The notes below the pieces were generated by a model. That model was not told the DNA's origin. It did not search any database and saw nothing but the letters and a program-made list of their open reading frames with translations. Both the position numbers and the translations under genes were made by a program. A DNA stretch of 64,000 nucleotides from a bacterium (GTDB taxonomy: Bacteria > Krumholzibacteriota > Krumholzibacteriia > LZORAL124-64-63), in assembly GCA_020049465.1 (NCBI GenBank), contig JAIFKS010000007.1:1-64000 (forward strand). The letters run 5' to 3'. Positions 24,086 through 41,936 of this stretch are shown here, in pieces; position 1 is the stretch's first letter; every line of letters begins with the position of its first letter.

Positions 24086-24120
24086 GGCTTCAATGTACGT
24101 CGGCGGGGCGTCCGCGACAA

Positions 24121-25960: not shown

Positions 25961-28900
25961 TCACTTCACGAGCGTCATCTTCTGCAGCCCCTCGTGTCCG
26001 GCCGCCTGCGCCCGCACCAGATACACGCCGCTGGCCTGCCCGCGGCCCGCGTCGTCGCGGCCGTCCCAGACCAGCGTGTGCCAGCCGGCATCGATCGGTC
26101 CGGCATGCAGCGCACGCACTCGGCGCCCCTGGACATCGTAGATGTCCACGACCAGTTCGCCGCGTGCCGCCACGTACAGGCTGAACTTCGTGGACGGATT
26201 GAACGGGTTCGGGTACGGACGGTCCAGTTGCAATGCCGCCTTCGGCAGGGCCGGACCATCTTCCACACCCACCAGTTCCACCGGGAAATAGACGCCCGTC
26301 CGCTGCATGTTTCCCTTGTACGTCGGCCAGGGCACGGACTGGCGATCGTACGCGAACGGCATGTCCCAGACGTGGCACAGGAAGTCCCAACCGGCGTAGA
26401 CCAGATCGACGTCTCCGTCCTCGTCCAGGTCGGTGATCGTCACGCCGGGCATGAGCGGGCCTTCGAGGGTGATCGGGAAGCCCGCCACCGCCTGTCCGTT
26501 CGCATGGTAGGCATACAGGTTGTAAGGTGCCGCCTCGTTCCCGCCGCCGATCCCGTGCACGATCTCCGGCGACCCGTCGCCATCGATGTCGCCGATGACC
26601 GGGCTGCCTTCCGAACTGCCGGGCAGGGTCACGGGCCAACCGGGCAGGAACTGCCCACTGGTACCGCCGGCGTAATCGGTGTCGATGGCCGCCAGTTTTC
26701 CGATCAGGCCCGTCTGGTTCGGCGCGTAGACGATATCGAGGTGGCCGTCACCGTCCAAATCGCCCAGGGCCGCACTACCCACCCATTCGTCGCTCACGAC
26801 CAAACCCGTCGCCTTCGGGAACCCCGGATAATTCGTCCCGTTCTGGCGCACGGCGTAGACGTAGCCCGATTTGCAGAAGAAGACGAGCTCTTCGGCGCCG
26901 TCGCCGTCCAGGTCACCGATGACGACGTCGTCGTTGATGGCGCCTAGAGCCGTATACGGGAAGCCGGGCACGTTCGTCCCGTCGTACCGCAACGCCATGA
27001 CCCGCCTCAGTCCGGTGGCGTCGTTTTTCGTGCCGAAGATGACGTCCAGCGCGCCGTCCCCGTCCAGGTCATGCAACGACGGCCCGCTGCGCGACCACTC
27101 GAAGTCGGCGCCCGCGCGCTTGTAGAAGACGCCCGTCGTCGCAGCGTTCGCGTCTCCGTCGCGCACCTCGGTGCCGTCGGCGTTCCAGGCCCAGACCACG
27201 CCGTTCAGGGTGTTGACAACGATCTCCGGCGCCCCGTCCCCGTCGATGTCGCCGACCGACGGCGCCGCCCAGTTCCAGCCGCTGTTGGCCGGCAGGATGA
27301 GGCTGCGCGGCCAGCCCGCCAGTTCGGCGCCCGTCTTCGTGTAGATATGGATCTTGAATGACGGCGCGCGCTCGCTGACGATCAATTCCAGTCCGGGCAC
27401 GTCGTCGAGATCAGCCAGGGTCACCGCGGCCGGCTGCAGCACGGCGCCGACGGCGAAATCCGTGAAATTGCCCAGCGTCTGCGAATCGCCGTCGCCGTCC
27501 AGGAGTTCCTCGCCGTTGTGGCGCCAGACGAAGACCTGGTTGCTCGCCACGACGATCTCCAGGTTGCCGTCGCCATCGACGTCGCCGACCGCGAGCGGGC
27601 TGCTGGTCTCTCCGGCGAAGGGCCGCGGGAAGTTCGCGGCTTCGGCAGGCGCCGTGCTCCGGCTGACCGCTGCCGACAGCAGACTCGGCACACCCGACTG
27701 GTCGACCGCACCGATCCGGTAGTAGTACGTGGTCAACTGGTCCAGGCCCGTATCCGCGTAATAGGACGAGCCGATGATCACGTCCGTATTCGCACGCACG
27801 TACGGCCCGCCGGGGGTTTGGCTGCGATACACGTTGTACCCGCGCGTGTCGGTTGCAAGCGAAGGCGACCACGACAGGGCGATCACATCGGCGCCGAGCG
27901 TGGTGTTGGTCGAGATTCCGCCGGGCGTGTCCGGACGCTCCAGCGTGAAATCATGCCGCAACGTGCGGCCGTAGGAATCCGTCAGCAGGATCCGCGCGGC
28001 ATTGTTGCGGCTGGGATCGATCGCCATCGAGAAGGCAGGCGCGCCCGTCGCTTCGGCCAGCAGTCCGAACGACGGCCAGGTCGCCACCGAGTCGTACCGG
28101 GTCACGAAGGCGCTGTCGGTGCGCAGACGCCCGGTTAACGCGCCGCTGGCGCCGGTGCCGAAATTCTTGAGGATGATGGTCACGCCCAGGCGCTCGCCCG
28201 CTTCCAACGCCCCGTCCCCGTCGCCCCAGGTCTCGTCCTCCCAGTTCAGCGACACCACTTCCACCTGGGGAGCCCGGATCGTGACCGGATACTCGGAAAG
28301 GGAATGGCTTCCCGCCGCCTCTGCATCGAACGCGAGCGTCACCGTCGTCGCGTCGACGACATTGTTGTTAATGGCCAGGAGCATCGGCGTCAGAGCCGCT
28401 GTGGCGCCGCCAGCGGTCACCGCGGCGAATCCGGATCCCGGAGTCAGCACAGTCACGCCGGGATCGGTGCAGGAGACCGTGGCGGTAATGCCGGCGGCCG
28501 GCAATCCGCCCGTTTCCCGGAGCACCGGCCAGACGGCGATCGTCTCGCCCGCGTCAGGGTAGCCGTCGCCGTTGCCGATGCTGCCGCTGGTGCCGTTGTC
28601 CAGCAACGCCACGGTTTCCACCGCGAGATAGGCGCCGCCGCTGACGACGGGCAGGGCCAGCGTCGTGCGCGCAAGATCACGCCCCGTGACCGTGACGACC
28701 GCTGATCCGGAACTGGTCGGCAGGAACGGCAGGGTGACCTGGCCGAGCGCGTCGGTCAGCCCCTGGACCAGATCCTGTCCCGCCTTCTGCACGCACACCA
28801 GCGCGCCCGCGACCGGCACTCCGGCACTGGTCACCGTCAGCGCCACGTTCTGGGGACCGACACCCAGCGAGACAGGGCCGGCGACGGACACGACCCGCGG

Positions 28901-30805
28901 TGAATCCGTCCAGATCGGGAGCGTCGGGTCACCCAGCAGTGTGTAGTTCTCGAAAGTCCAGCGATCGACGTAGTTGTTGGAAGTCAGTCCGATGAACGGC
29001 AGCCGGCTCAGGGCCATCAGGCGGCCGACCCGCATTTCGCTGGTGCAGTACAGTTTGCTGAAAAACTCCTGCTGGTAGCTGTTGGCGTTGTTCGGGAACG
29101 CCGCTCGCGCCGAGCCCAGGGAGCAGATCGATCCACCGTTCGGATTCTGCACGAAGCGTTCGAGCAGGCAACTGTTGTCGAAAGCCGCCGAAGCGCAGTT
29201 CAGCGCGTACATGACGAACGACCGGCCGGTGTTCGTCAGGTTGTCCGCGTCGCCGGTCATGAAGTTCCCATCACCCACCGACATGTTGAAATAATAGCCG
29301 TGGCCGATCTGGTTGAAGATCCCGTAATGGCCCGTGTTCAGCGTGTCGATGAGCGCGGCCCGCGTCAGCGGCGCGTCACGGACATAAAGCTGATCCGTCT
29401 CGTACATCCGCGTGTATTCCATGTCCGTACAGGGCTCGATGTGCGTGACCACCTGTTCGTTCGCGAATTTCGCGCCGTCCAGGATGATGAAGTTCTGGAT
29501 GTGGAAATCGTCGGGGAACAGCACTTCCGCCGCGAACAGCGTGCGCTTCGTCCAACCGGCGCCGGCAGCCGTGTTCTCGTAGGCGAGCACCTTGTTGACG
29601 AAGACCGTGGCGGCCGCGGCGGAACTGACGGCGGCCCGGCCGAGGTAGACCTCTTCGGCGAAGTCGGCGAGATCGCCGGTCGTGGTCCCGCTCACGGGCT
29701 CACCGTAGAAAGAATCGCCGTCGGCGTTCCAGTTACCGTCGAGACAGGCGAAATAGAGGTCACTCGGAATCAACGTCGAGCCGTTCGTCGGGTAGAACGT
29801 GTTCCTGACATACCGCGGCGGCAGGATGTCGGAGTCCCCGCCCAGCAGGACGTAGTCCACGCCCCACTTCTGGTACGCGTCGCGGATGAACATCCGCAGC
29901 GTCTCCTGGAAATCGGCGCCCCGGCGGAAATTCGCCTCGATGTACTCCCGTGTCGCCACGACCGCGGGCAGACCCTGGGCGGTCTTGAAGGCGGCCAGCG
30001 TCTCGAACGCCGGACGCATTTCCTCGTTGGTGATGATCAGGTAGCTGACGGCGCTGCCGGTTAGGCTGGGCGTCTTGTCCGGACTGAAACCGCCGCTCGC
30101 TGCGGCCACGGACACACCGTCCTGGCGCGAGTAGCCGCTCAACAGTTCCGGATTCGCCACCAGCTGCGTGAGCACCGAACGGTTCGCCTCGAAGTCGGAA
30201 ACGACCAGGCGTTCGCGCACGGCCATCTCCGCGGCCGGGATATCGCCGGCGCTGACGCCGTTGAAGTTCACCCGGACGGCATAGCTGTCGAGGAACTCGA
30301 GCGCTTCGCCGGCGCCGTCCTGGATCTGGCGGAACGGATAGACTTCCAGGGAAAGCAGCCGATAGCCGCGCCAGGTGTGGGTCCCCCCGAAGCGCCCCCA
30401 CGCGGCGGGAAACGACTCGCCTCCCGCGGGCAGCCGACCCTCGCGGACATAGACACCGGTGTCGGTGAACAGCGGATCGGCGACGGCCAGCGCACCATCA
30501 ACCTTCACGCGGTGCGTCGCGAGCGGCTCGATCCAGGCGTCCTGGACCTGGGCGTCGGCCGGCACCAGCAGCAACAGCGTGCGCAGTGGCAGGCGCGGCC
30601 GACCCGGATCGTCGATCCCCTTCAGTTCTTCCAGCACCGGATACGCTGCGCCCTCGCGGTCACGCTGCCAGACGATCCGACCGGCGTCGAATGATCCTTC
30701 ATGGATCACCGCGCCGCCGGCTCCGGCAGCCGCCGCCGCGGGCATCGCGACACTCAGCGTAGCGAGAATGATGGTGACAAAAAAACGGGCGCCGAACGCT
30801 TTCAT
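25961..30805 (-). CDS. secreted gingipain-like (peptidase C25) protein with FG-GAP repeats and C-terminal sorting-type tail
   Basis: 1614-residue exported protein. Domains in order: signal peptide (residues 1-27); gingipain-type propeptide to about 225; peptidase C25 catalytic domain about 235-620 with GHGYYFNM (His502) and ALNCASAAF (Cys537) as the dyad; Ig-like beta segments about 640-960; a fibronectin type III domain about 985-1065; eight FG-GAP/VCBS-type calcium repeats between about 1070 and 1460 (GDVDGDGNLEIVVAS and similar Asp-x-Asp-Gly-Asp-Gly units); and an FlgD-like tail with PYPNPFNPST at about 1528. Such tails direct type IX-like export or surface attachment in FCB bacteria. GGAGG lies seven bases before the ATG. 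It is likely a surface protease; cleavage specificity cannot be read. Confidence 0.88.
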   Translation of the reverse strand: MKAFGARFFVTIILATLSVAMPAAAAAGAGGAVIHEGSFDAGRIVWQRDREGAAYPVLEELKGIDDPGRPRLPLRTLLLLVPADAQVQDAWIEPLATHRVKVDGALAVADPLFTDTGVYVREGRLPAGGESFPAAWGRFGGTHTWRGYRLLSLEVYPFRQIQDGAGEALEFLDSYAVRVNFNGVSAGDIPAAEMAVRERLVVSDFEANRSVLTQLVANPELLSGYSRQDGVSVAAASGGFSPDKTPSLTGSAVSYLIITNEEMRPAFETLAAFKTAQGLPAVVATREYIEANFRRGADFQETLRMFIRDAYQKWGVDYVLLGGDSDILPPRYVRNTFYPTNGSTLIPSDLYFACLDGNWNADGDSFYGEPVSGTTTGDLADFAEEVYLGRAAVSSAAAATVFVNKVLAYENTAAGAGWTKRTLFAAEVLFPDDFHIQNFIILDGAKFANEQVVTHIEPCTDMEYTRMYETDQLYVRDAPLTRAALIDTLNTGHYGIFNQIGHGYYFNMSVGDGNFMTGDADNLTNTGRSFVMYALNCASAAFDNSCLLERFVQNPNGGSICSLGSARAAFPNNANSYQQEFFSKLYCTSEMRVGRLMALSRLPFIGLTSNNYVDRWTFENYTLLGDPTLPIWTDSPRVVSVAGPVSLGVGPQNVALTVTSAGVPVAGALVCVQKAGQDLVQGLTDALGQVTLPFLPTSSGSAVVTVTGRDLARTTLALPVVSGGAYLAVETVALLDNGTSGSIGNGDGYPDAGETIAVWPVLRETGGLPAAGITATVSCTDPGVTVLTPGSGFAAVTAGGATAALTPMLLAINNNVVDATTVTLAFDAEAAGSHSLSEYPVTIRAPQVEVVSLNWEDETWGDGDGALEAGERLGVTIILKNFGTGASGALTGRLRTDSAFVTRYDSVATWPSFGLLAEATGAPAFSMAIDPSRNNAARILLTDSYGRTLRHDFTLERPDTPGGISTNTTLGADVIALSWSPSLATDTRGYNVYRSQTPGGPYVRANTDVIIGSSYYADTGLDQLTTYYYRIGAVDQSGVPSLLSAAVSRSTAPAEAANFPRPFAGETSSPLAVGDVDGDGNLEIVVASNQVFVWRHNGEELLDGDGDSQTLGNFTDFAVGAVLQPAAVTLADLDDVPGLELIVSERAPSFKIHIYTKTGAELAGWPRSLILPANSGWNWAAPSVGDIDGDGAPEIVVNTLNGVVWAWNADGTEVRDGDANAATTGVFYKRAGADFEWSRSGPSLHDLDGDGALDVIFGTKNDATGLRRVMALRYDGTNVPGFPYTALGAINDDVVIGDLDGDGAEELVFFCKSGYVYAVRQNGTNYPGFPKATGLVVSDEWVGSAALGDLDGDGHLDIVYAPNQTGLIGKLAAIDTDYAGGTSGQFLPGWPVTLPGSSEGSPVIGDIDGDGSPEIVHGIGGGNEAAPYNLYAYHANGQAVAGFPITLEGPLMPGVTITDLDEDGDVDLVYAGWDFLCHVWDMPFAYDRQSVPWPTYKGNMQRTGVYFPVELVGVEDGPALPKAALQLDRPYPNPFNPSTKFSLYVAARGELVVDIYDVQGRRVRALHAGPIDAGWHTLVWDGRDDAGRGQASGVYLVRAQAAGHEGLQKMTLVK

Positions 30806-32486: not shown

Positions 32487-33170
32487 TCACGTTTGCCCAC
32501 CCAAATCCTGAGAAGCGATCAGACGGCACCACCATTGGCGGCTGCACGCAAGTCCATCGGCGGCGATCGCGTCGGCCAGCCGCGCGGCCTCGCCGCCCGC
32601 GGCCGGCGCGCCGGCCCTCAACATCGCGACCACCGCGTCCGCGTCCTGGGGCCAATGATTGGCCCCAGTGCCGAAATCCGCCACCCGGGTGGCCACCGCC
32701 GGCGGCAGGCGACGGCGGAATTCGCTGCCCGTCACGAGCGGCCCACGCGCCGAGGGCCAGAGCCGGGCCAGGAAATCCTGGAGATCGCGGTAGTGCGCCG
32801 CGGCCGGCGTTGTCCCGGTCGGTTCATCTTCGAGAATGAAAATCGAGCCACCGGGCTTCAGCAGTCCCAGCCACGTTTCGAGGAAACCGAGTGTGGGCTG
32901 CGCCGGCAGGAGGTGCCGGACGAGATTGGCGGCCAGAACCAGATCCAGGGAGCCCGGCCGCAACGGCGGCTGGCAGGCGTCACCCCTCACCTCGGCGGTT
33001 GATCCCGCCGCCCGCGGCATCCGGTCCACTCCCAGACAGGCCAGACCACTTCGTCGCAGCAGTCCCAGCAGGCGACCGTCGCCGCAACCGAGTTCCACCG
33101 CGCGCAGCCGCTCGGTGTCCGGCCGCCCGAGCAGTTCAGTAAGGCTCTCCGGAAGGGGGTCGAACGGCAT
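32487..33170 (-). CDS. class I SAM-dependent methyltransferase
   Basis: 227 residues. AVELGCGDGRLLGLL is motif I (SAM loop), GVDRMPRAAGS the acidic end of strand 2, GSLDLVLAANLVRHLL motif II, and LGLLKPGGSIFILEDE the post-II strand. It resembles small-molecule or glycan methyltransferases of the UbiE/Methyltransf_11 type. The N-terminus overlaps the WecA-like gene by 35 bases, and AGGAG lies seven bases before the ATG. In this locus a sugar or glycan-end methylation role is reasonable but inferred. Confidence 0.85.
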   Translation of the reverse strand: MPFDPLPESLTELLGRPDTERLRAVELGCGDGRLLGLLRRSGLACLGVDRMPRAAGSTAEVRGDACQPPLRPGSLDLVLAANLVRHLLPAQPTLGFLETWLGLLKPGGSIFILEDEPTGTTPAAAHYRDLQDFLARLWPSARGPLVTGSEFRRRLPPAVATRVADFGTGANHWPQDADAVVAMLRAGAPAAGGEAARLADAIAADGLACSRQWWCRLIASQDLGGQT

Positions 33171-34395
33171 CGGGGGTCTCCTCGGCCACCGTCAGCGAGC
33201 CGGTGGTGCCCTCACGCATGCCGGATTTGAGCCGCGCCACGCGCTGCCGCTCGGCCTGCAGATCGATGATGTCGGCCACATCCTGCTCGATGCGTCCGGT
33301 CAGTTTGTCGAGCCGGTCGTCCATGCCCAGCGCGTAGGAAACCTCGCTGAAGAGATCCAGCCCGTGCCGACGGTTCTGCAGATGCCTCTGGGCGCCGAGC
33401 TGCGCGGCCAGCATCCAGATCCCCATCGCAGGCAGCCCGAGCCAGGCGACGCCCAGGAAATCGCTCAGCGCGAACATCGTGGTGCCGAGGGTGACCAGCA
33501 GCAGGCACAGCGTGGCCCCGGCCGGCGAGAAACCCAGACGCAACAGTCGATGATGCAGGTGGAAATCGTCCGCCTGGAAGATCGAGGTGCGCCGTCGGCA
33601 GCGACGCACGATCGTGGTGCCCGTGTCCCAGATCGGCACGATCATCGGCGCCAGCAGCACCGGCAGCTGGATCGGCGTGATCTGGCTCAGATTCAGCATC
33701 AGGCTGGCCAGGACCAGGCCCATCCACATGCTGCCGGAATCGCCGAGGAAGATCTTCCGCTTGCTGACGTTCCAGTAGAAGAAAGCCACGGTGGCGCCGC
33801 ACAACGTGGCGGCGAACAGCGTCGAGTACATCTCCTGGACAGCCATCGAGATGATCACCAGCGCGGCCGACGCCAGGATGCTGATGCCGCTGGCCAGCCC
33901 GTCGAGACCGTCGATCAGGTTCATCGAGTTGATGAATCCGAGGTACCACATCAGCGTGAACGGCCAGGCCCAGCCGCCCAGCGCGATGGTGCCGAGCAGG
34001 GGCAGTGTCACCGTGTCCATGCGTTGGCCGAACAGCATCAGGCCGACGATGACCACGAGTTGCCCGTAGAGCTTCTTTTCCGCGTGGATGCCGAATCGGT
34101 CGTCCCCCACGCCCAGGGCCAGGATCGCCAGCCCGGCGCCGCTGAGGATGCCGAGCCAGGACCAGGGCAGCCTGGTGCCCAGGATCACGTGCTCCAGGAA
34201 GAACAGGGCGCAGAAGAACGAGATGAAGATGGCCATGCCGCCCGTGCGAGGCACCGGCTCGCGGTGGGCCCGCCGGTACCCCGGATGGTCGACGATCTCC
34301 GTCAGGAAGCCCAGGTTGCGAAAATGCGGCTGCACGAGCCATGACATCAGGAACGCGGCCGCAAATCCCAGCAGGGCAACAATTTCGAGATCCAC
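33136..34395 (-). CDS. WecA/TagO-type undecaprenyl-phosphate GlcNAc-1-phosphate transferase
   Basis: 419-residue polytopic membrane enzyme that transfers a HexNAc-1-phosphate from UDP-sugar to undecaprenyl phosphate, starting a glycan chain. About 10-11 helices. VPRTGGMAIF, GVGDDRFGIHAEKKL (Asp-Asp pair), NLIDGLDGLASG, KRKIFLGDSGSMWMG and ADDFHLHHRLLRLGFS are the ordered cytoplasmic motifs. A 100-residue cytoplasmic C-tail (GRIEQDVADIIDLQAERQRVARL) is unusual and looks coiled-coil. The start is a GTG with AGGGAGG four bases upstream. Priming by this enzyme defines the second polysaccharide locus as distinct from the one at 9.6-18 kb. Confidence 0.9.
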   Translation of the reverse strand: MDLEIVALLGFAAAFLMSWLVQPHFRNLGFLTEIVDHPGYRRAHREPVPRTGGMAIFISFFCALFFLEHVILGTRLPWSWLGILSGAGLAILALGVGDDRFGIHAEKKLYGQLVVIVGLMLFGQRMDTVTLPLLGTIALGGWAWPFTLMWYLGFINSMNLIDGLDGLASGISILASAALVIISMAVQEMYSTLFAATLCGATVAFFYWNVSKRKIFLGDSGSMWMGLVLASLMLNLSQITPIQLPVLLAPMIVPIWDTGTTIVRRCRRRTSIFQADDFHLHHRLLRLGFSPAGATLCLLLVTLGTTMFALSDFLGVAWLGLPAMGIWMLAAQLGAQRHLQNRRHGLDLFSEVSYALGMDDRLDKLTGRIEQDVADIIDLQAERQRVARLKSGMREGTTGSLTVAEETPDAVRPPSGEPY

Positions 34396-34480
34396 TGTTC
34401 CTCCCTGAAACACCAAAACGGCCGCGATCCGCGTCGAGCCGGCCCCTCTGCAAGTTACGCCAGGGTTCCGGGGCGGGCAA

Positions 34481-35620
34481 TCATTTTCTCCGGCCGGGGC
34501 CGCCGAGGATTTCCGCGTAAGCCGCTGTCGTCAGATCAGCTGTGTGCGCCCAATCCCATTGGCGTGCCCGCACCGGTCCGGCGGACCGGAACCGTTCGCG
34601 CAGTCCGGCATCGGCCAGCAGGCGTTCCAGCGCGGCGGCGATCGCGTCGACATCCAGCGGATCGACCAGCAGGGCATCGCCGCCAGCCACCTCGGCCAGG
34701 GCCCCGCGGTCGGACGTCAGCACCGGCAGACCGCAGGCCATCGCTTCGAGCACCGGCAGCCCGAACCCCTCGTGCAGCGACGGGAAGACCAGAGCAACAG
34801 CCGTGCCGTAGAGACGCCGCAGCTCCGCACGTTCACAATAACCGGACACGAGCACCCTGCCGCGCAGCGCCGGTCGCGCGAGCCTCTCCATCAGCGGCGC
34901 CGTCAGCCAGCCGGACGGCCCGACCAGCCGCAAGTCCGGCGCCCCGGCACCACGCACCTCCAGCAGCCGTTCGTAGGCCTCGAGCAGCCGCGGCAGGTTC
35001 TTGCGGGGCTCGAGCGCGCCGACGAAGAGAAAGAACGGACGGAGCGGCCGTATCCCGGGCACCGGCTTCCAAGGTTCGAGCGCCCAAGCCGGTGTTCCCA
35101 GGGGAGTGATCCGGATTCGCGCGGCCAGTTGCGGGAAATGCGCCGCCAGTTGTCGTCCGGTCGCCGCGCTGTTGGCCAGGATCAGACGCGCCCGGCGCAG
35201 TGCGACCGGGATGACCGCGTCGTAGTACAGCCGCCGGGACCTCGGTACCACGTGGGGCATTTCGCGCCAGGCCAGGTCGTGCACGGTCACCAGCAGGGGG
35301 CAGTGAGGCCGGACGGGCGCGACCGGCTGCAGGCTGTGCAGAAGGCCGGCGCCCGAAGCGCGGCAAAGAGCGGGCAGTCCCCGCTGGATGTACCAGGCCC
35401 GGCTCAGATCCCGGTCCGCCTCCGGACAGACAGCCAGGCGCCAGTGGGGCGCGTCTTCCAGCCAGGCGAACGGCTCCTTCGATACGGCGGCGACGACGAA
35501 ATCGAATCCCCGGTCGTCCGCCGCGAGCGCGCGCACCAGTTCCACGACGGCGCCGGCCACACCCGTGGGCTGAGCCCGCACCGACAGCGCGTCGAGCACG
35601 ATGGTCGGCCGCGACGTCAT
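34481..35620 (-). CDS. GT4 family glycosyltransferase
   Basis: 379-residue GT-B enzyme. The N-terminal half opens with VLDALSVRAQPTGVAGAVVELVRAL, and the C-terminal GT4 half has FLFVGALEPRKNLPRLLEAYERL, LVFPSLHEGFGLPVLEAMACGLPVLTSDRGALAEV. The Glu-x7-Glu catalytic pair lies in HEGFGLPVLE. The donor nucleotide-sugar and the acceptor are not inferable. It begins on the stop of the upstream O-antigen ligase gene (ATGA overlap). No trans-membrane segment, so it acts on the cytoplasmic face. Confidence 0.9.
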   Translation of the reverse strand: MTSRPTIVLDALSVRAQPTGVAGAVVELVRALAADDRGFDFVVAAVSKEPFAWLEDAPHWRLAVCPEADRDLSRAWYIQRGLPALCRASGAGLLHSLQPVAPVRPHCPLLVTVHDLAWREMPHVVPRSRRLYYDAVIPVALRRARLILANSAATGRQLAAHFPQLAARIRITPLGTPAWALEPWKPVPGIRPLRPFFLFVGALEPRKNLPRLLEAYERLLEVRGAGAPDLRLVGPSGWLTAPLMERLARPALRGRVLVSGYCERAELRRLYGTAVALVFPSLHEGFGLPVLEAMACGLPVLTSDRGALAEVAGGDALLVDPLDVDAIAAALERLLADAGLRERFRSAGPVRARQWDWAHTADLTTAAYAEILGGPGRRK

Positions 35621-37020
35621 CGCCCACCCCATTCCCGGATCCCGGCCCGCGCCTCCAGCAGCGCCGCCATCAACAATCCCAGCGCCACCCATGCGTGCGG
35701 CAGGTTGTACTGGGCGAAGGTCATGGTCTGGACCGCGATCGCCGCACCGGCCGCCGACAGCGCCCCTGCAGCGACCCACGACCATCGGTCTCCTTCACCC
35801 GGCTCCGGAACCGCAGCCCGGCGCCGCCACACCGCACGCACGAGTCCACCGGCACCGAACATCAGGGCCGCGAAGCCCAAAAGCCCCGTTTCGCACAGGA
35901 CCAGCAGCGGAAAATTCGCCACGACCGGCCAGGTGAACATCGCCTGGAGCCCAGCCGGGTCCACGAGAGCCGGGAAATGCCACCCGAACTGTCCCCAGCC
36001 GATCCCCACCACCGGGCTGAGCGTGAAAGCGCGCCAGGCGGCCTGCATCGAATAGAGCCGCGTGAGATTCGACCAGTCGTTCACGCTGAACGTCTGCGCC
36101 AGGCGGCGCGCCGGTAGCAGGACCGGCTCCCAGCCGGCGATGGCGGCCGTCACCAGGACGAGCGCTGCAGCACCGCCGAGGATCAACCCCAGGCGCCGCT
36201 TCCGACGCCGGACCGCCCCCGCCAGCGTCGGTGCCGCCCACCACGCCGCCACCACCACCCCTCCCACCGCCCCGAGCCAGGCGCCGCGCGACCAGGTCAG
36301 CAGCAACAGCAACGACAGCGCACCGGTTGCCGCCCGACGCGCGAACGCCGACCAGCCCGTCAGTGCGACCACGGGCAACGCCAGGAGCAGGTAGTTGCCC
36401 AGGTACAAGGGTTCACAGGCCGTGCCGCGCAGCCGCGGAATCTCGAGGAATCGGTTCCCGACATACAGTTCGGCTGAACCGCTGAGGATCGACGGATTGG
36501 AGGTGAAGATCCGTTCAAGGTCTGCGAGCAGCATCGACGAACGGTGGTAGCCGACTTGCTGCAGCAGTCCGTACGCCGCCTGTAGCAGTGCGCCGGCCAC
36601 GAGCCAGCGGGCCGTGCTGCGCCACGCCGAAGGTCCCCGCAGGTGCACCACCGGCCAGAGCGTGAAGGCCGCCATCACCGTCATTTGGACCACCTGCCGC
36701 AGGTAGCGGCTCCACGCGGCGGCGGCGCCAACTTCCGCGGGCGCCAACCAAAGGCCACCGGCCGACATCAGCACGGCCACCACGGCCGCGCCCAGTCCCC
36801 ATCGCCACGAGCGCGGCAGGTCGTTCCAGAGGTTTCCCGGTCCGGAAACAAGCCAGGTCAGCGCCATGAACAGCCACGACGGCTGCAGTCCCGCGCCCGC
36901 ATCCCGTCCCGTGGTCAGGATGATCAGATCAGCCCCGATCCAGGGCAGCATGACGAGGGTCAGCCCCCACAGAACCCCAGCGGCGCGATCCCGGGGGGAA
37001 AGGGATTTCGCCGTGGGCAT
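35617..37020 (-). CDS. O-antigen ligase/polymerase family membrane protein
   Basis: 467-residue protein with about 12 hydrophobic helices and the Wzy_C/O-antigen-ligase pattern: EIPRLRGTACEPLYLGNYLLLALPV, the LTWSRGAWLGAVGGVVVA helix, and the large periplasmic loop with RLYSMQAAWRAFTLSPVVGIGWGQFGWHF. It would polymerise or ligate lipid-linked chains at the periplasmic face. Whether it is a Wzy polymerase or a WaaL ligase cannot be decided from sequence. The ribosome site is weak. It lies 188 bases downstream of the degenerate kinase-like gene. Confidence 0.85.
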   Translation of the reverse strand: MPTAKSLSPRDRAAGVLWGLTLVMLPWIGADLIILTTGRDAGAGLQPSWLFMALTWLVSGPGNLWNDLPRSWRWGLGAAVVAVLMSAGGLWLAPAEVGAAAAWSRYLRQVVQMTVMAAFTLWPVVHLRGPSAWRSTARWLVAGALLQAAYGLLQQVGYHRSSMLLADLERIFTSNPSILSGSAELYVGNRFLEIPRLRGTACEPLYLGNYLLLALPVVALTGWSAFARRAATGALSLLLLLTWSRGAWLGAVGGVVVAAWWAAPTLAGAVRRRKRRLGLILGGAAALVLVTAAIAGWEPVLLPARRLAQTFSVNDWSNLTRLYSMQAAWRAFTLSPVVGIGWGQFGWHFPALVDPAGLQAMFTWPVVANFPLLVLCETGLLGFAALMFGAGGLVRAVWRRRAAVPEPGEGDRWSWVAAGALSAAGAAIAVQTMTFAQYNLPHAWVALGLLMAALLEARAGIREWGGR

Positions 37021-37208
37021 GGGATCAGCGGGGCCACCGCGCCGGGCGCGGCGGTGCGATCAGGGGAGCACCGGTTCTCGGGAACGAAACAGGCAGCATC
37101 GTGGGCCTCGCGGCAGCGGTGATCAAGACAGGCGGCGGCAGCCGGCTCCGTGGCGGACCCTAGGGCAGCGCCCGGGCCCGGTCCACCGAAATCCGGCGGG
37201 CGTCCGTT

Positions 37209-38054
37209 TCAACGACGTTCACTTGCGGGCAGGACCCCGGCCACGGCGGCCGCAATCTCCGCGAGCATGACGGCTCCGGCTTCGGCGCCGCCCGGTGGCG
37301 CGGCTGGGAACACCCTCACCGTCACCGGCGAAGGCCCGACGGCACCGCGGGCCAGTTCCTGCAGGTGTGCCTGGTTACGCCAGCCGGGATCGCCCCTCCT
37401 GCCGACCGGTCGATGGGACCCGGGTCGCTCGTCCCAGGCATCGGGGACGACCAGAATCTCGATCCTTTCGGGTCTCAGCAGGGCGGTCAGCCGCCGCAGA
37501 CATTCCGCGGAACCGGGCGCCGCCGCTTCCCCGGCCACGACGCACCAGACCAGTGCCGACCAGCGCACCGGCGCCGCCCGGGCGACGGCCGGCAAACCGG
37601 CCGCGATTTCCCAGATCGGCAGGGTTGCCCCCGAAGCTTCACCGAGCAGACGCCAGCGAAGCCACAACGGCGAACCGGGACCGAACCCGCCGTTGGGCGC
37701 CAGCCATTGCGCGCGCAATCCCGCCGGCAGGTCCGCCCGCACCGCGGGCGGGGGTTCAGCGGGATCAGCGCCGCCCAGATAGCTGAAGGCGGACCAGGCC
37801 ACGGTCTCGTCTTCGAACAGACAGCTTCCCCAGCGGTCCGACTGTCCGGCCGCCGCCGCCGCCAGACCCGCCGCCGCGCAGGCGGCCGCGCGCCCGGCGC
37901 CGGGCGTCGCCACGGCGACATCACGGCAGACCACGGCCGCGTCGTCCGGCACCGGGTCGCCGTCGGCGGAGAGGAAATGATGCGCGATCGCATCGATATG
38001 GTGGGAACGCAGGGCCCCTTCGGCCGCGCCGGCGGGGCGTTGCTGTCGGCTCAT
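37209..38054 (-). CDS. P-loop-less relative of ParA/BY-kinase ATPases (tentative)
   Basis: 281-residue soluble, Ala-rich protein. Residues ~45-70 read AAVVCRDVAVATPGAGRAAACAAAGLAAA, which lines up with the Walker A of bacterial tyrosine kinases (Ser-Ala-x-Pro-Gly-Glu-Gly-Lys-Ser-Thr) with the Lys replaced by Arg and the Thr by Ala. Near residue 178, WSALVWCVVAGEAAAPGSAECLRRLTALL resembles the segment following Walker B. No intact nucleotide-binding motif remains, so it would be a pseudo-ATPase. It sits between ParA-CBM48 and the polymerase gene, where a chain-length regulator often occurs. If this alignment is wrong it is simply an orphan of unknown function. The GC-rich stretch 38055-38146 upstream holds only an imperfect hairpin. 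Confidence 0.4.
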   Translation of the reverse strand: MSRQQRPAGAAEGALRSHHIDAIAHHFLSADGDPVPDDAAVVCRDVAVATPGAGRAAACAAAGLAAAAAGQSDRWGSCLFEDETVAWSAFSYLGGADPAEPPPAVRADLPAGLRAQWLAPNGGFGPGSPLWLRWRLLGEASGATLPIWEIAAGLPAVARAAPVRWSALVWCVVAGEAAAPGSAECLRRLTALLRPERIEILVVPDAWDERPGSHRPVGRRGDPGWRNQAHLQELARGAVGPSPVTVRVFPAAPPGGAEAGAVMLAEIAAAVAGVLPASERR

Positions 38055-38146
38055 GCTGCGGACTCCGGGCTGCGCTGACAAGGGCTCACGTGGCACGGGC
38101 AACGGTGGCGGGGGGCGGCGGCGACAAGCGCCCCCGCCCCCAGGGT

Positions 38147-39223
38147 TCAGGACACCGTGATCAGACTGTTGGCGCCGCCGAATTCGTTGGGAGCGGTCTC
38201 CGCGTTGTGCGGATCCGGCAACCAGGCGCCGTCGACGATGAACCGATACTGGTGGGGGCCGGGCTCCATCATCAGGTATGTCTCCCAGATCCCGTCTTCA
38301 CGGCGCGCCAGCGGCAGCCCCTTCGCCGACCAGTCGCAGAAGGATCCGGTCAGCCGTACCGAACGCGCACGCGGGAAATCAGCCTCGAAGTGCACGCCCG
38401 CCTTGGTCACCTGCGGCCCGTGCAGCAGGGCGGTCCAGTGGTCGAGCGCCGCCACGGCCACCGTGGCCTCCGCCTTGCCGGCCACTTCGCGCGCCAGCAT
38501 CCGGAAATCGTGGGCGCCGCGCGAGTCCGCGTCGAGCCGCGCCACCGGCTGCCCGGCTCCGGCCGCTTCCCGGAAACGCACCGTGTGGTGGATGATCGTT
38601 TCCATCAACTCGTCCGGGTACAATTCGGCCAGTTCCTCCATGATCCTGCGCACGAACAGCGGGCGCGTGTCGAAATCCGCCATCAGGACGCGCGGAATGA
38701 CGTCGTGCCCTTTCTTCTGCCGCAGCATCGAGAGCGTCTCGCGCATCTTGCGCACAGCCTGCAGGCTGTAGCAGCTCGGGTCCACCGGGATGATGACCTC
38801 TCCGCTGGCCAGCAGGGCGTTGAACGTCAACAGCCCCACGCTGGGCGGGCAGTCGATCAGGATGAAATCGTACGGCAGGGCACTGCGGCGCAGGTTGTTG
38901 CGCAACCGCAGGTCCTTTTCCGCTTCGCGCGCCAGGGCCATCTCGACGGCGCTGAGTTCGACGCCCGCGGGCACCAGGTGCAGGTTGGGTTCGATCTCCA
39001 GAAAGGCGTCCTCGACCAGGATGTCCGTGGTCAGAAACAGGTCGTAGGTGCTCAGCGTGAAATCGCGTTCGCGGAATCCGAAGGACAGGGTCGCGTGACC
39101 CTGGGGATCGTTGTCGATGAGCAGGACTCTGTGGCCCAATTGGGCGAGGGCGGCGGCAAGATTGGTCGCGGTGGTGGTCTTTCCGCAGCCGCCTTTCTGG
39201 TTGGCCAGGGCAACGACGCGCAT
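38147..39223 (-). CDS. ParA-family ATPase fused to a C-terminal CBM48 glycan-binding domain
   Basis: 358 residues. Residues 1-250 are a full ParA/Soj ATPase: the deviant Walker A KGGCGKTTT (10-18), LLIDNDPQGHATLSFGF, FILIDCPPSVGLLTFNALLA and VIIPVDPSCYSLQAVRK. Residues ~275-358 form a compact beta domain (VRLTGSFCDWSAKGLPL, GIWETYLMMEPGPHQYRFIVDGAWLPDP), which is the CBM48/AMPK-beta glycogen-binding fold with its aromatic residues kept. A ParA attached to a carbohydrate-binding domain is an unusual architecture. No parB or parS is nearby; the neighbours are polysaccharide genes, so it may position or regulate the polysaccharide machinery. Chromosome segregation seems less likely. Confidence 0.88.
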   Translation of the reverse strand: MRVVALANQKGGCGKTTTATNLAAALAQLGHRVLLIDNDPQGHATLSFGFRERDFTLSTYDLFLTTDILVEDAFLEIEPNLHLVPAGVELSAVEMALAREAEKDLRLRNNLRRSALPYDFILIDCPPSVGLLTFNALLASGEVIIPVDPSCYSLQAVRKMRETLSMLRQKKGHDVIPRVLMADFDTRPLFVRRIMEELAELYPDELMETIIHHTVRFREAAGAGQPVARLDADSRGAHDFRMLAREVAGKAEATVAVAALDHWTALLHGPQVTKAGVHFEADFPRARSVRLTGSFCDWSAKGLPLARREDGIWETYLMMEPGPHQYRFIVDGAWLPDPHNAETAPNEFGGANSLITVS

Positions 39224-39342
39224 GCCGAATCCTTTCGATCATGGATCGCGGTCTGTCCCGTCCGTCCGGGCTTCCAGCCCGTGCGGCGCATCTATGTCGA
39301 AAGGGGCGGCCGTCGGGTCGGGGCGCCACCACCTGAAACGCG

Positions 39343-39370
39343 ACATTACGGCGATGCGATCACCTGTCAA
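39343..39370 (-). promoter_or_regulatory. sigma70-type promoter for parA-CBM48
   Basis: Minus-strand TTGACA (39365-39370, consensus) and TAATGT (39343-39348) with a 16-base spacer, about 115 bases upstream of the ParA-CBM48 ATG. A 17-base palindrome begins at the edge of its -35 box. Confidence 0.7.
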
Positions 39371-39386
39371 TCATTAATTTAATGAT
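39370..39386. promoter_or_regulatory. 17-base A/T-rich palindrome at the parA-CBM48 promoter
   Basis: ATCATTAA-T-TTAATGAT is a perfect palindrome that touches the -35 hexamer of the ParA-CBM48 promoter and stands out in GC-rich surroundings. Its place and symmetry suit an activator or repressor dimer. No regulator gene is adjacent. Confidence 0.55.
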
Positions 39387-39426
39387 CTCCTTACGCCCCG
39401 GCGCGACCTCTCTCCCACCCGCGGCG

Positions 39427-39876
39427 TCATACCCCCGACAGGCCGCGCAACCAGAAGTAGCAGCCCACGCCCACGCACATGCCGCCCGCGACCTCGCCCC
39501 AGGTATGCCCCACCAGTTCCCTCAAGCGGCCGCCGGGCAACGGCAGGCCGGCGTGCAGAGCCTCGCGCAAATCGTTCAGGAGCCGCGCCTGTTTGCCCAT
39601 TTCCTGCCGCAGCCCTGTCGCCTCGAACAGCACGAAAACGCCGAAAACGAGCGCCAGGCTGAACTGCGCCGAAGCCGCGCCGTCCGCCCGCCGGACCAGG
39701 AGAGCCAAGGTCGTCACCGTGGCGGCGTGGGAACTGGGCATGCCGCCGTTGGCGAAAAACAGCAGCGGGCGCCAGCGCCTGCGGGTCACCGCCTCCCACC
39801 CCACCTTCGCCGCCTGGGCGATCAGCCCGCTGAGCAGGGCCACCAGGCCCGCGTTCCATTCCACGTTCGCCCCCAT
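39427..39876 (-). CDS. DUF212 (divergent PAP2) membrane protein
   Basis: 149 residues with about four hydrophobic helices. NGGMPSSHAATVTTLALLV is the phosphatase-like signature of the divergent PAP2 family (YuiD type), and VLFEATGLRQEMGKQARLLNDL is its conserved second block. In full PAP2 phosphatases such motifs act on lipid phosphates; in this short family no reaction is established. The ATG at MGANVEWN is chosen because the membrane domain starts there. It ends about 40 bases before the palindrome and promoter of ParA-CBM48, so it is probably a separate transcript. Confidence 0.85.
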   Translation of the reverse strand: MGANVEWNAGLVALLSGLIAQAAKVGWEAVTRRRWRPLLFFANGGMPSSHAATVTTLALLVRRADGAASAQFSLALVFGVFVLFEATGLRQEMGKQARLLNDLREALHAGLPLPGGRLRELVGHTWGEVAGGMCVGVGCYFWLRGLSGV

Positions 39877-40118
39877 TTCCAGAATCCCCCGGACCGCCCC
39901 GGACGGGGCGGCCGACGCCAGTCTACGACATCGACCGGGCAGGGCAACGCGCAACTTGAGATTTTACCGCGGTTCTGCCATCATATACGATTGATCTGCG
40001 GTGCGGCGCGCCGGTACGCGGCGGCGCCGTCTCTTGTTGTCCTGATCCGGAACGGGCGGGCACGCCGTGCGCGCGCGCGTCCAGCGGTCCGCACCACCAC
40101 AGGCAAGGGGTTCGTTCG
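39877..40118. other. divergent promoter region between DUF212 and PpiD-like genes
   Basis: 242 bases between oppositely directed genes. An A/T-rich stretch at 39954-40000 includes TTGAGA and TATACG on the plus strand and TAAAAT on the minus strand, but no pair has ideal spacing. The rest is GC-rich and featureless to me. Confidence 0.4.
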
Positions 40119-41936
40119 ATGTTCCAGTTCCTCCGCTCCCAAGCCAAGATGTTCTACTGGGTGATCGCCGGCAGCTTCGTCCTGTTCGGATTCTTCATGT
40201 ACGCGGGCGACACCGGCTGCCGCGCCGGCGGTTCCGGAGCTGCCGGCGCCGGCATCATCGGCACCGTCAACGGCGAACCCCTCTCGGCGCAGAACTACGA
40301 CCTGGCCGTCCGCCAGCAGGTCGCCGCGATGCGCCAGCAGTCTCCCGAGCGGGAACTGAATTCGAACCAGTACGCGATGGCGCAGGACCGTGCCTGGACG
40401 CTCATGGTGCAGGACGCGCTGATCCAGAAGGCCATCGATGAGCGCAAGATCAAAGTCACCGACCAGGAAATCCTGGACGTCCTGACCAATAACCCGCCGG
40501 CCGAGATTCTGGCGCCGTACCGTACCGAGGACGGACAGCTCGACCTGAACCGTTATTACGCCGATCTGCAGAACCCCGAGAACGACTGGTCGGATATCGA
40601 GAACTACGTGCGCCAGCTGCTTCCGCGGCAGAAGCTGACCGAAGAGATCGCCGCGGGCGCGGTCGTCAGCGAAGAGGAAGTCCGCCTCGAATACGTGCGG
40701 CAGTCCGGCCTCGCCATGGCCGAGTACTTCGGCATCGCCTTCGGCGACATCTCCGACGGCTACAACCCGACGGATGCGGAGATCAGCGCCTGGTACGCGG
40801 CCCATCCCGACGACTACCGTCACGACGGCCTGGCCGCCTGCAAGGTCGTCCGTTTCGCCAAGGCGGCCAGCAGCGCCGACGAGAAGGAAGTGCTCGACTC
40901 CCTGACCGAGGTGCGGCAGGACATCCTGTCCGGCAAGCTCGACTTCGCCACGGCCGCACGGCAGTTCAGCGACGATACGGGTAGCGGAACCCGTGGCGGG
41001 GATCTGGGCACGTTCGACCGCAACCGCATGGTGCCCGAATTCACGAAGGTCGCCTTCGGCCTGCCGGTCGGGCAGATCAGCGAACCGGTGCGCACCAAGT
41101 TCGGATACCACCTCATCGAAGTCACGGCACAGGAGACCGGCGCCGACGGCGAGGTCGTCCGGATCACGGCCCGCCACATTCTGCAGAATGTCGCGCCGGG
41201 ACCGCAGACGCTGGACCTGATCGCCGAATCGGCCAACGGGTTCCGCGGCCGCGTCGACGCCGGCAGCTTCGCCTCCACCGCCCAGGCCGAAGCCCACGAG
41301 ATGCTGTCACCGGCGCCGGTCGCGCGCGGCCGGGATATCCCGGGCCTGGCCATGTCGATCATGGGCACCAATTGGCTGTTCACCGCGAAGGCCGGCACGG
41401 TCAGCCCGGTCTTCGAAAACGACGACTGCTACTACGTGCTGCTGGCCGAGCGCATCGACCCGGCTGGTATCCGCACGCTGGACGAAGTCCGCAGCCAGAT
41501 CATGCTGGCGCTGCGCAAGCAGCACAATGCGCAGGTGGCCCGTCAGCGACTGGCGCCGGCGATCGCCGCCGTCAATGCCGGTGCGGCGATGAGCCAGGCA
41601 GCGGGCCAGTTCGGCCTCAAGTACGCCGTGACCGACACGTTCTCGTACAACAGCAACGTGGCGGATGTCGGCTACGGCACCGACTTCAACAAGGAGATCA
41701 TCGAGGGCCTGGTCGGACGCCTGACGCCCGAGGTCGAGACCGCCCGCGGTGTCTATGTGGGCAAGCCCCTGTGGATCAAGCCGATCGACGAAACCGACTT
41801 CGCCATGCGCCGCGCCGGGATCCAGCAGGCCCTGCTGGCGCGCGCCCAGGGTGAGATCGTCGAGAAGTGGCTGCAGGATCTGAAGGACCAGGCCAAGATC
41901 GAGGATCGGCGCGCTCAGATGCGCGGCGACGGCTGA
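40119..41936 (+). CDS. PpiD/SurA-type periplasmic peptidyl-prolyl isomerase
   Basis: 605-residue membrane-anchored foldase. One N-terminal helix (MFYWVIAGSFVLFGFFMYAG) is followed by a SurA_N-like region (GTVNGEPLSAQNYDLAVRQQV), a parvulin domain near residues 270-345 (LDFATAARQFSDDTGSGTRGGDLGTFDRNRMVPEFTKVAF) and a second degenerate rotamase-like part up to ~480. The protein would help fold outer-membrane or secreted proteins emerging from SecYEG. It is a plus-strand gene alone between minus-strand neighbours and ends in a strong terminator. Confidence 0.9.
   Translation: MFQFLRSQAKMFYWVIAGSFVLFGFFMYAGDTGCRAGGSGAAGAGIIGTVNGEPLSAQNYDLAVRQQVAAMRQQSPERELNSNQYAMAQDRAWTLMVQDALIQKAIDERKIKVTDQEILDVLTNNPPAEILAPYRTEDGQLDLNRYYADLQNPENDWSDIENYVRQLLPRQKLTEEIAAGAVVSEEEVRLEYVRQSGLAMAEYFGIAFGDISDGYNPTDAEISAWYAAHPDDYRHDGLAACKVVRFAKAASSADEKEVLDSLTEVRQDILSGKLDFATAARQFSDDTGSGTRGGDLGTFDRNRMVPEFTKVAFGLPVGQISEPVRTKFGYHLIEVTAQETGADGEVVRITARHILQNVAPGPQTLDLIAESANGFRGRVDAGSFASTAQAEAHEMLSPAPVARGRDIPGLAMSIMGTNWLFTAKAGTVSPVFENDDCYYVLLAERIDPAGIRTLDEVRSQIMLALRKQHNAQVARQRLAPAIAAVNAGAAMSQAAGQFGLKYAVTDTFSYNSNVADVGYGTDFNKEIIEGLVGRLTPEVETARGVYVGKPLWIKPIDETDFAMRRAGIQQALLARAQGEIVEKWLQDLKDQAKIEDRRAQMRGDG

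Follow-up and report, generated by a model that had tools for sequence, protein, structure and literature searches.

The 64,000-nucleotide stretch of krumholzibacterial DNA analysed here (the window) carries, among genes for polysaccharide synthesis, a gene in which a ParA-type ATPase is joined to a glycan-binding domain, and it raises the question what such an ATPase does and whether its task is tied to the genes around it. The gene is the minus-strand open reading frame at 38147-39223 and encodes a protein of 358 amino acids (Table 1); the plus-strand frame at the same coordinates does not encode it. A preliminary description of this DNA had the coordinates right and left the strand unstated. 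It had also assigned residues 1-250 to a ParA ATPase with the Walker A motif KGGCGKTTT and the C-terminal part to a CBM48/AMPK-beta-like domain, and both assignments were borne out: the first by Pfam, sequence and fold, the second by two Pfam families above their cut-offs and by sequence matches in the PDB. AAA_31 covered residues 1-170 (E 7e-48), and the motifs KGGCGKTTT, DNDPQGH and ILIDCPP can be read in the protein. E-set/CBM48 similarity is present in the C-terminal part, where AMPK1_CBM covered residues 286-358 (E 6e-12, 46.0 bits against a cut-off of 26.8) and CBM_48, starting earlier, covered residues 271-334 (E 3.7e-6, also above cut-off). A phmmer search against the PDB matched residues 1-250 to ParA/Soj and residues 287-357 to AMPK-beta glycogen-binding domains.

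Table 1. Features of the fusion gene and its surroundings in the window.
Feature	Position	Strand	Evidence
ParA ATPase (residues 1-250) + AMPK-beta/CBM48 glycogen-binding domain (fusion gene)	38147..39223	minus	Pfam, phmmer, structure model, relatives
AMPK1_CBM Pfam match (residues 286-358) within fusion gene	38150..38368	minus	Pfam; coordinates derived from ORF
DUF212 (divergent PAP2) gene directly upstream of fusion	39427..39954	minus	Pfam
Partner gene (297 aa from the called TTG; an ATG near 38054 is the likely start)	37209..38102	minus	N-terminal motif HHIDAIAHHFLS
Wzy_C O-antigen ligase/polymerase-like gene, lineage-specific neighbour	35617..37020	minus	Pfam
GT4 glycosyltransferase, lineage-specific neighbour	34481..35785	minus	Pfam
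WecA/MraY-type glycosyltransferase (PF00953, Glycos_transf_4), lineage-specific neighbour	33136..34416	minus	Pfam

The AlphaFold model of the fusion protein (pLDDT 91, pTM 0.79) consists of a ParA fold, a linker and a C-terminal domain; confidence is low at residues 254-263, and the linker around these positions is predicted to be flexible. A VIA fold search returned the Soj chain 9a6n_A, an integrative model, with a Z score of 38.4 (1.4 A over 250 residues, 1-252) and 8ray_A with a Z score of 37.6, the latter also being found by Foldseek (E 8e-25). Among the structural matches of residues 1-255, ParA and Soj came out on top and McdA was within the first 20; the identity between Soj and the ParA domain of the fusion is 38%. 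As the VIA list for the whole fusion was filled by ParA chains, the evidence for the CBM fold comes from profile matches, the phmmer search against the PDB and the AlphaFold model rather than from a fold search. A promoter scan of positions 37000-40200 gave no minus-strand prediction, and the hairpin between the fusion gene and the gene that follows it was not stronger than in shuffled sequence.

The fusion was searched for in 98 genomes, 80 of which belong to the class of the window. In 57 of the 80 class genomes (hand count) a single match spans residues 1-357 or 1-358, with 41-94% identity to the window's fusion when the window's own match is left aside, and four more have the fusion in pieces or truncated by a contig end, which brings the hand count to 61 of 80. 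These full-length and fragmentary matches indicate that the fusion is neither a chance product nor a mis-assembly. At least 561 relatives of the C-terminal half were found in a scan with one genome per species, and the best 80 of these are labelled Krumholzibacteriota, Latescibacterota, Auribacterota, Omnitrophota, Zixibacteria, Eisenbacteria, Gemmatimonadota, Planctomycetota, delta/Desulfobacterota or Myxococcota, or are unlabelled bins. Some of the labels are doubtful, since Latescibacterota bins grouped with the class of the window. Among the matches listed, the nearest labelled relatives are mostly Candidatus Krumholzibacteriia, with the closest of them, at 92% across the C-terminal half, carrying the label 'uncultured bacterium'. 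A pattern search of viral contigs, sensitive to close relatives only, gave no match. Judged by these sequence matches, the fusion is a widespread family with about ten phylum labels, many of them those of little-studied phyla.

Conservation of individual residues was counted in 91 unique homologues, a set that includes two incomplete sequences (L070 and L109) and leaves out nine duplicates and one sequence without the P-loop pattern (L110). K10, K15, D39 and D124, comprising the signature lysine of the deviant Walker A motif and the Walker A' and Walker B aspartates, are invariant (91/91), and the ATPase therefore looks intact. C13, H43 and F134, each present in 89 of the 91, are presumably points at which the family differs from Soj. 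Position 216 is basic in 89 and position 218 in 90 of the 91 homologues; we take these positions to be the counterpart of the DNA-binding arginine of Soj, which is suggestive, and only suggestive, of nucleoid binding. In the C-terminal domain, W298 (91/91), W334 (89/89), N352 (86/89) and R/K327 (88/89) are what we take to be the equivalents of the AMPK-beta contacts W100, W133, N150 and K126. CBM48/AMPK-beta domains bind alpha-1,4-glucan, and the fusion is thus predicted to have a binding site of the glycan type with all contact residues retained. The genome of the window has six further CBM48 copies that were read whole (L001-L006), and these have the same contact residues. Four of these six copies stand in tandem within one long protein.

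The gene directly 3' of the fusion in the window had been described as a kinase-like orphan. Neither Pfam nor NCBIfam matched its 297-aa product, which has nothing recognisable to these collections beyond its N-terminal motif, and the kinase identity was dropped. That the gene is no orphan had been overlooked: a gene of about 260-300 codons lies directly 3' of the fusion in many loci, and three sub-group profiles match the gene downstream of the fusion in 75 of 101 loci, a count that includes 35 training proteins and 9 duplicate loci. The N-terminal parts of two sub-group profiles align (96.2%, E 2e-9, 77 columns), and the window-type profile aligns to another sub-group in this part as well (86.5%, E 4.5e-6, 52 columns); synteny and this 52-column match suggest that the partner in the window belongs with the others. 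For one sub-group, the c6-type partners, the profile matches the ParA profile along ParA positions 2-255 (93.3%, E 2.6e-7), and the Walker A motif is absent from it. In the AlphaFold model of a c6-type partner, from locus L095 (pLDDT 80), the tail is of low confidence and contains a single short helix (residues 12-17), and the fold is like that of FlhG/FleN/MinD, with FleN-FleQ regulator complexes among the structural matches of the model. The profile match and this fold, in a protein without Walker A, mark the c6-type partner as a pseudo-ATPase of the MinD kind. The f3-type partner profile did not match the ParA profile significantly (5%), and c6-type partners are thus the only ones for which the pseudo-ParA fold is established. 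The recurrence of this gene suggests that the fusion and its downstream partner form a previously undescribed ParA/partner positioning module.

The most constant part of the partner proteins is their N-terminal tail, which follows the pattern [basic]-L-x-x-[IV]-[SA]-x-[LYF]-[FY]-[LI]. Examples are HHIDAIAHHFLS in the window, RRLKDVSHLFLS in another member of the Krumholzibacteriia, RGIESIAHLFLS in Planctomycetota, KKLGKGLEDISYLFLS in Omnitrophota, KRLGRGLEHISDIFLS in Desulfobacterota and PRDLADVLHYFLP in Myxococcota. The pattern, which was composed post hoc once the sequences had been inspected, is present downstream of 64 of the 92 unique fusion genes, compared to 9 of 641 other genes of the same loci treated by the same procedure; this is the matched control, an earlier background of 46/1200 N-termini having come from another procedure. 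A looser form was judged by eye to be present in 13 more fusion loci, and 15 of the 92 have none, nine of these being of the Planctomycetota type and two having no downstream DNA. Eight downstream genes (in L088, L092, L095, L096, L104, L105, L107 and L112, from Omnitrophota, Zixibacteria, Eisenbacteria, Desulfobacterota and a delta-labelled MAG) have the core LG[KR]GL in their tail. Across the fusion loci this core is found in 14 of 9660 frames; eight of the 14 are the genes directly downstream of the fusion, and a ninth encodes the DUF4912 protein of L095. It is also found near the start of all seven ParB N-termini that were obtained from nine ParB loci (L149 and L151 yielded none), for example KKLALGKGLGALIPD, RRALGKGLEALIPE, KKMALGRGLDALFPD and KVLGKGLSALIN, and four of these seven ParBs share a genome with an LG[KR]GL partner (G102, G109, G118, G120). 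The core is absent from all Krumholzibacteriia tails read, the window's included, and from all Myxococcota tails read, so that the likeness to ParB in these groups is one of position and of the remaining motif.

The tail motif sits on varied bodies, namely the pseudo-MinD/FlhG fold, an HTH_17 protein (L086), short proteins (L088, L107, L112), a c21-like protein (L138) and the DUF4912 protein of L095, and a tail shared by differing bodies is what would be expected of adaptors. According to the accessible part of PMC12462528, an N-terminal motif of ParB made up of aliphatic and positively charged residues binds ParA, and the corresponding peptide stimulates the ATPase. The accessible part of PMC10241942 describes partners of A/D ATPases that touch their ATPases through a basic, disordered N-terminus; the word 'glycogen' does not occur in the main text of that paper.

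With respect to the ligand, genes of glycogen metabolism were found next to the fusion in several lineages. In genome G046 the fusion, a CBM48-only protein, two glycosyltransferases, a GH57 branching enzyme and a phosphorylase are consecutive genes. The fusion has a GH57 branching enzyme no more than 5 kb away in L095 (by Pfam) and in L092 and L096 (by BLAST to the L095 enzyme), and a glycogen phosphorylase lies within 2 kb, on the opposite strand, in L107. Genome G050 (91% complete, one contig) has two fusion copies, one of them beside a CBM48-only gene and a GT5 gene reduced to a short remnant; a GH57 branching enzyme was not found there. Outside a myxobacterial clade, a glycogen gene adjoins the fusion in 4 of 28 loci, where about 0.64 would be expected (P 0.004; P 0.027 for three lineages), values that are rough and post hoc, exclude G046, take the flanks as complete though they are often incomplete, and set BLAST matches against profile counts. 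Within the class of the window, 56 of the 61 fusion-bearing genomes have GT5 or a GH57 branching enzyme, versus 12 of the 19 without the fusion (Fisher 0.006, with kinship ignored and some genomes incomplete). The 12, which count against a glucan cargo, include genus g6 (4/4), and G005 and others are instances of GT5 in a genome lacking the fusion. Together with the conserved glucan-contact residues, the adjacency of glycogen enzymes in several lineages makes an alpha-glucan the likeliest cargo.

The glycogen enzymes were searched for with profiles in 50 of the 55 loci L084-L138 (L098, L113, L120, L126 and L137 were left out), and one of the searches used 24. All 28 genomes tested from outside the myxobacterial clade matched GT5, the Planctomycetota matches being weak (E 1e-9 to 1e-19); GT5 is common in general (12 of 14 control genomes). 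The 16 of 50 genomes without a GT5 match, for which genome completeness is not given, all fall in one clade of 22 rows (support 100 in a quick tree), nearly all of which are labelled Myxococcota or Deltaproteobacteria. Nine of these 16 (G104, G127, G130, G132, G135, G136, G137, G138 and G144) gave no match to GT5, phosphorylase, GlgE or GH13, and GH57 was absent from them or weak and partial. The assembly of G104 is small (1.6 Mb). GlgE, as an alternative route to alpha-glucan, was found in none of the 50 genomes. With these results, a universal glycogen role was rejected for the mostly Myxococcota clade. The CBM contact residues are kept in most of the myxobacterial members that lack glycogen enzymes (L130 has Ser for N352); either the ligand differs in these bacteria, or glycogen was never the point.

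From the fusion and its conservation, the recurrent partner with its tail motif, the glucan-contact residues and some glycogen-gene adjacency, all of which are observed, we infer ATPase activation, nucleoid binding, glucan binding and the nature of the cargo. The ParA part would dimerise with ATP and bind the nucleoid non-specifically. The downstream partner would contact the ParA part through its short N-terminal peptide, which is ParB-like in several phyla, and this peptide would trigger ATP hydrolysis and release. The fused CBM48 would act as the tether of the ATPase to the glycan. The most likely cargo would be a particle of glycogen or of another alpha-glucan, which the module would distribute or partition along the nucleoid instead of letting it drift to a pole. 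That the fusion and its partner are a two-component positioning module of the ParA type with a glucan-type cargo is a reading to which we give an even chance.

The same positioning system may carry something other than a glucan, with the CBM48/E-set domain serving to bind proteins or to form oligomers, and with the cargo carried by the partner bodies. Persistence of the fusion in those myxobacterial genomes that gave no match to the glycogen enzymes tested fits this, as does the variety of partner bodies (pseudo-MinD, HTH and others), which vary as cargo adaptors do; moreover, the fusion of the window has no glycogen gene beside it, nor could one be recognised in two Myxococcota loci that were read through (L114 and L134). 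What has been retained, however, even in myxobacterial members, is the set of sugar-contact residues and not the fold alone, and this set is also kept by the six CBM48 copies elsewhere in the genome of the window. We regard a non-glucan cargo as unlikely, though as the most probable of the alternatives.

A second alternative keeps the glucan and gives up the transport. Binding of glucan to CBM48 tunes an enzyme in the case of AMPK-beta, and glycogen or maltodextrin bound to the fusion could likewise tune its ATPase, the ATPase/partner pair, taken as MinD/FlhG-like and in some loci joined by MerR or HTH proteins, then controlling gene expression or another process. Besides this precedent, the FleN-FleQ complexes among the structural matches of the partner, the HTH_17 partner in L086 and a MerR-type gene (cluster c17) upstream of the fusion in 12 loci are consistent with such a sensor. 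A common set of regulated genes was not recognised beside the module, however, and the ParB-like tail in several phyla and the intact ParA core suit a positioning cycle, so that a role as glucan sensor seems to us distinctly unlikely.

The surroundings of the gene in the window had led to the proposal that the ATPase polarises O-antigen or exopolysaccharide assembly in the envelope. The neighbours named for it, an O-antigen polymerase, a GT4 enzyme and WecA, are indeed present (Wzy_C, GT4 and Glycos_transf_4 by Pfam), and a 509-aa 'deacetylase-like' gene gave no Pfam match. Neighbourhoods in the class were compared in the window and 20 stretches of 14-19 kb, picked for long contigs and family spread; the counts refer to genes found by a gene caller that overlooks some. 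A gene that clusters by sequence with the Wzy_C gene of the window is near the fusion in 9 of the 21 loci, the window included, and all nine belong to families f1 and f5, in which the Wzy_C, GT4 and WecA-like genes come after the fusion. None is near the fusion in the 12 loci of families f2, f3, f4, f6 and f7, and in the wider locus set this sequence cluster (c7) is confined to Krumholzibacteriia loci. The survey of homologues thus upheld the fusion as a widespread gene and did not uphold a constant polysaccharide locus or a general tie to O-antigen or exopolysaccharide genes. The polysaccharide-export setting is a property of some lineages, not of the fusion gene, and O-antigen machinery was rejected as the role of the whole family. 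A DUF212/PAP2-like gene immediately upstream of the fusion in 14 of the 21 class loci would suit an envelope function, and BcsQ, a ParA relative, acts in cellulose secretion, but the fusion scores only 88.3 bits with the BcsQ model, far under its cut-off of 157.85. We consider polarisation of O-antigen assembly very unlikely.

A partition ParA of chromosome or plasmid with an acquired extra domain, which the closeness to Soj (38% identity) would favour, is disfavoured and highly improbable, because a second, Soj-like match (E 1e-40 or better, about residues 2-250) is present in 36 of the 61 fusion-bearing class genomes (hand count), ParB adjoins this separate Soj in both genomes checked (G050 and G046), more than 110 kb from the fusion or on another contig, the protein downstream of the fusion has no ParB domain, none of 745 matching plasmid records covers 80% of the fusion, and the CBM is retained across about ten phylum labels. 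The preliminary description had seen neither parB nor parS beside the fusion, which agrees with our finding no ParB domain downstream and no parS-like site in the 64 kb of the window. The partition reading gains slightly from the window's own genome (93.6% complete), in which no ParB (TIGR00180, PF02195) was found and the ParA/MinD-like matches after the fusion reach no more than E 1e-23; with neither a ParB nor a second ParA at the level of Soj found, the fusion is the best ParA of that genome.

The reading that we prefer, a ParA-type module that positions a glucan, would add a new kind of cargo to this family. Chromosomes, carboxysomes, chemoreceptor arrays and division proteins are placed by ParA/MinD ATPases. 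A literature search, with most subscription papers and all preprints outside its scope, found no polysaccharide placed by such an ATPase and, by title and abstract start, no ParA-CBM48 architecture. As described in the accessible part of PMC12706056, glycogen phase-separates in Escherichia coli, gathers at the old pole and makes divisions asymmetric; a dedicated glycogen spreader would therefore be useful. We put forward tentatively, as a possibility that we hold to be short of probable, that ParA-CBM48 and its pseudo-MinD partner, with a ParB-like trigger peptide, make use of the nucleoid to spread glycogen particles and secure their inheritance in many uncultured phyla, which would make them the first machine of the ParA family found to place a storage polysaccharide. 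Whatever the cargo, the fusion gene and its recurrent partner, with a tail that is ParB-like in several phyla, define an orphan ParA family for which there is a candidate activator and a ligand open to direct test.

Among known systems, the proposed module resembles McdA/McdB in combining a ParA-type ATPase with a dedicated partner for a cargo other than DNA, and McdA is a structural match of the fusion; partners of the class of McdB use a basic N-terminal tail, as far as the accessible part of PMC10241942 describes them. It would differ in that the cargo tag, the glycan-binding domain, sits on the ATPase itself, and in its partner, which as modelled is a pseudo-MinD/FlhG protein and has the LG[KR]GL tail in some phyla. 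With ParA (Soj)/ParB the fusion shares the ATPase core, KGGxGKTT and the fold, and LG[KR]GL is common to ParB and eight fusion partners, whereas the fusion has an extra CBM48, its partner has no ParB domain, the window has no parS, and Soj and ParB are encoded by genes separate from the fusion in G050 and G046. The AMPK beta-subunit domain (CBM48, PF16561) is matched above the Pfam cut-off and at four sugar-contact positions, but in the fusion it sits on a bacterial ParA ATPase instead of a kinase scaffold. BcsQ, another structural match, is a ParA-family ATPase tied to a polysaccharide; the fusion stays under the cut-off of its model, no bcs gene was recognised nearby, and a different type of glycan is expected. 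Finally, FlhG/FleN, which are MinD-like, share their fold with the modelled L095 partner, whereas this partner lacks the Walker A motif and bears the tail motif by which it would reach its ATPase.

Relatives of the Peptidase_C25 gene of the window lie at most seven genes away from the fusion (the gene for a ParA-type ATPase with a C-terminal AMPK1_CBM domain) in 16 of 89 loci, duplicates counted, and these loci belong to several families of the class Krumholzibacteriia. The Peptidase_C25 gene and the fusion may therefore share an old gene neighbourhood. In families f3 and f7 of the class, the fusion has, at most a few genes away to one side or the other, genes of the metalloprotease-like and SBP_bac_5 kinds, which are listed for the window in the table together with other features.

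Features of the window and of loci with relatives of the fusion
Feature	Position	Strand
Protein without Pfam match; relatives metalloprotease-like by eye	22520-24181	-
SBP_bac_5 solute-binding protein	24121-25797	-
Peptidase_C25 protein, 1614 aa, with FG-GAP repeats and FlgD-Ig tail	25961-30805	-
c21 gene, 180-220 aa, recurrent 3' of the partner in several phyla	L095:8670-9329 and relatives	
c26 orphan, about 110 aa, recurrent 3' of the partner in class families	L053:10693-11037 and relatives	
Fusion member with KGGCAKTT (Walker A Gly to Ala)	L042:9090-10163	+

The genome of the window (93.6% complete assembly) was searched for the Soj/ParB chromosome-partition pair. No ParB was found with models TIGR00180 and PF02195, nor any Soj-level ParA besides the fusion. 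The same genome encodes a long protein (L001, G000:C162) with four AMPK1_CBM repeats in tandem toward the N-terminus.

Two kinds of gene recur after the partner, the gene directly downstream of the fusion. The c26 profile, whose orphan gave no match in Pfam and NCBIfam, matches in 17 loci and the c21 profile in 27, training members counted in both cases; for c21 there was only a faint hint of NucS (E 0.07).

One genome carries two copies of the fusion (L054 and L055), and in L054 the frame 3' of the fusion consists of the tail motif known from the partner, joined to an NrfD-like membrane protein. The Walker A alanine of L042 is present at the same position in 3 of 91 fusion members.

Myxococcota loci (L114, L134 and others) display the recurrent gene set MerR, fusion, partner, c21, sigma-factor-like gene and hydrolase, flanked by putative 2-phosphoglycerate kinase and phosphogluco/mannomutase genes; all these names except MerR were assigned by reading the sequence.
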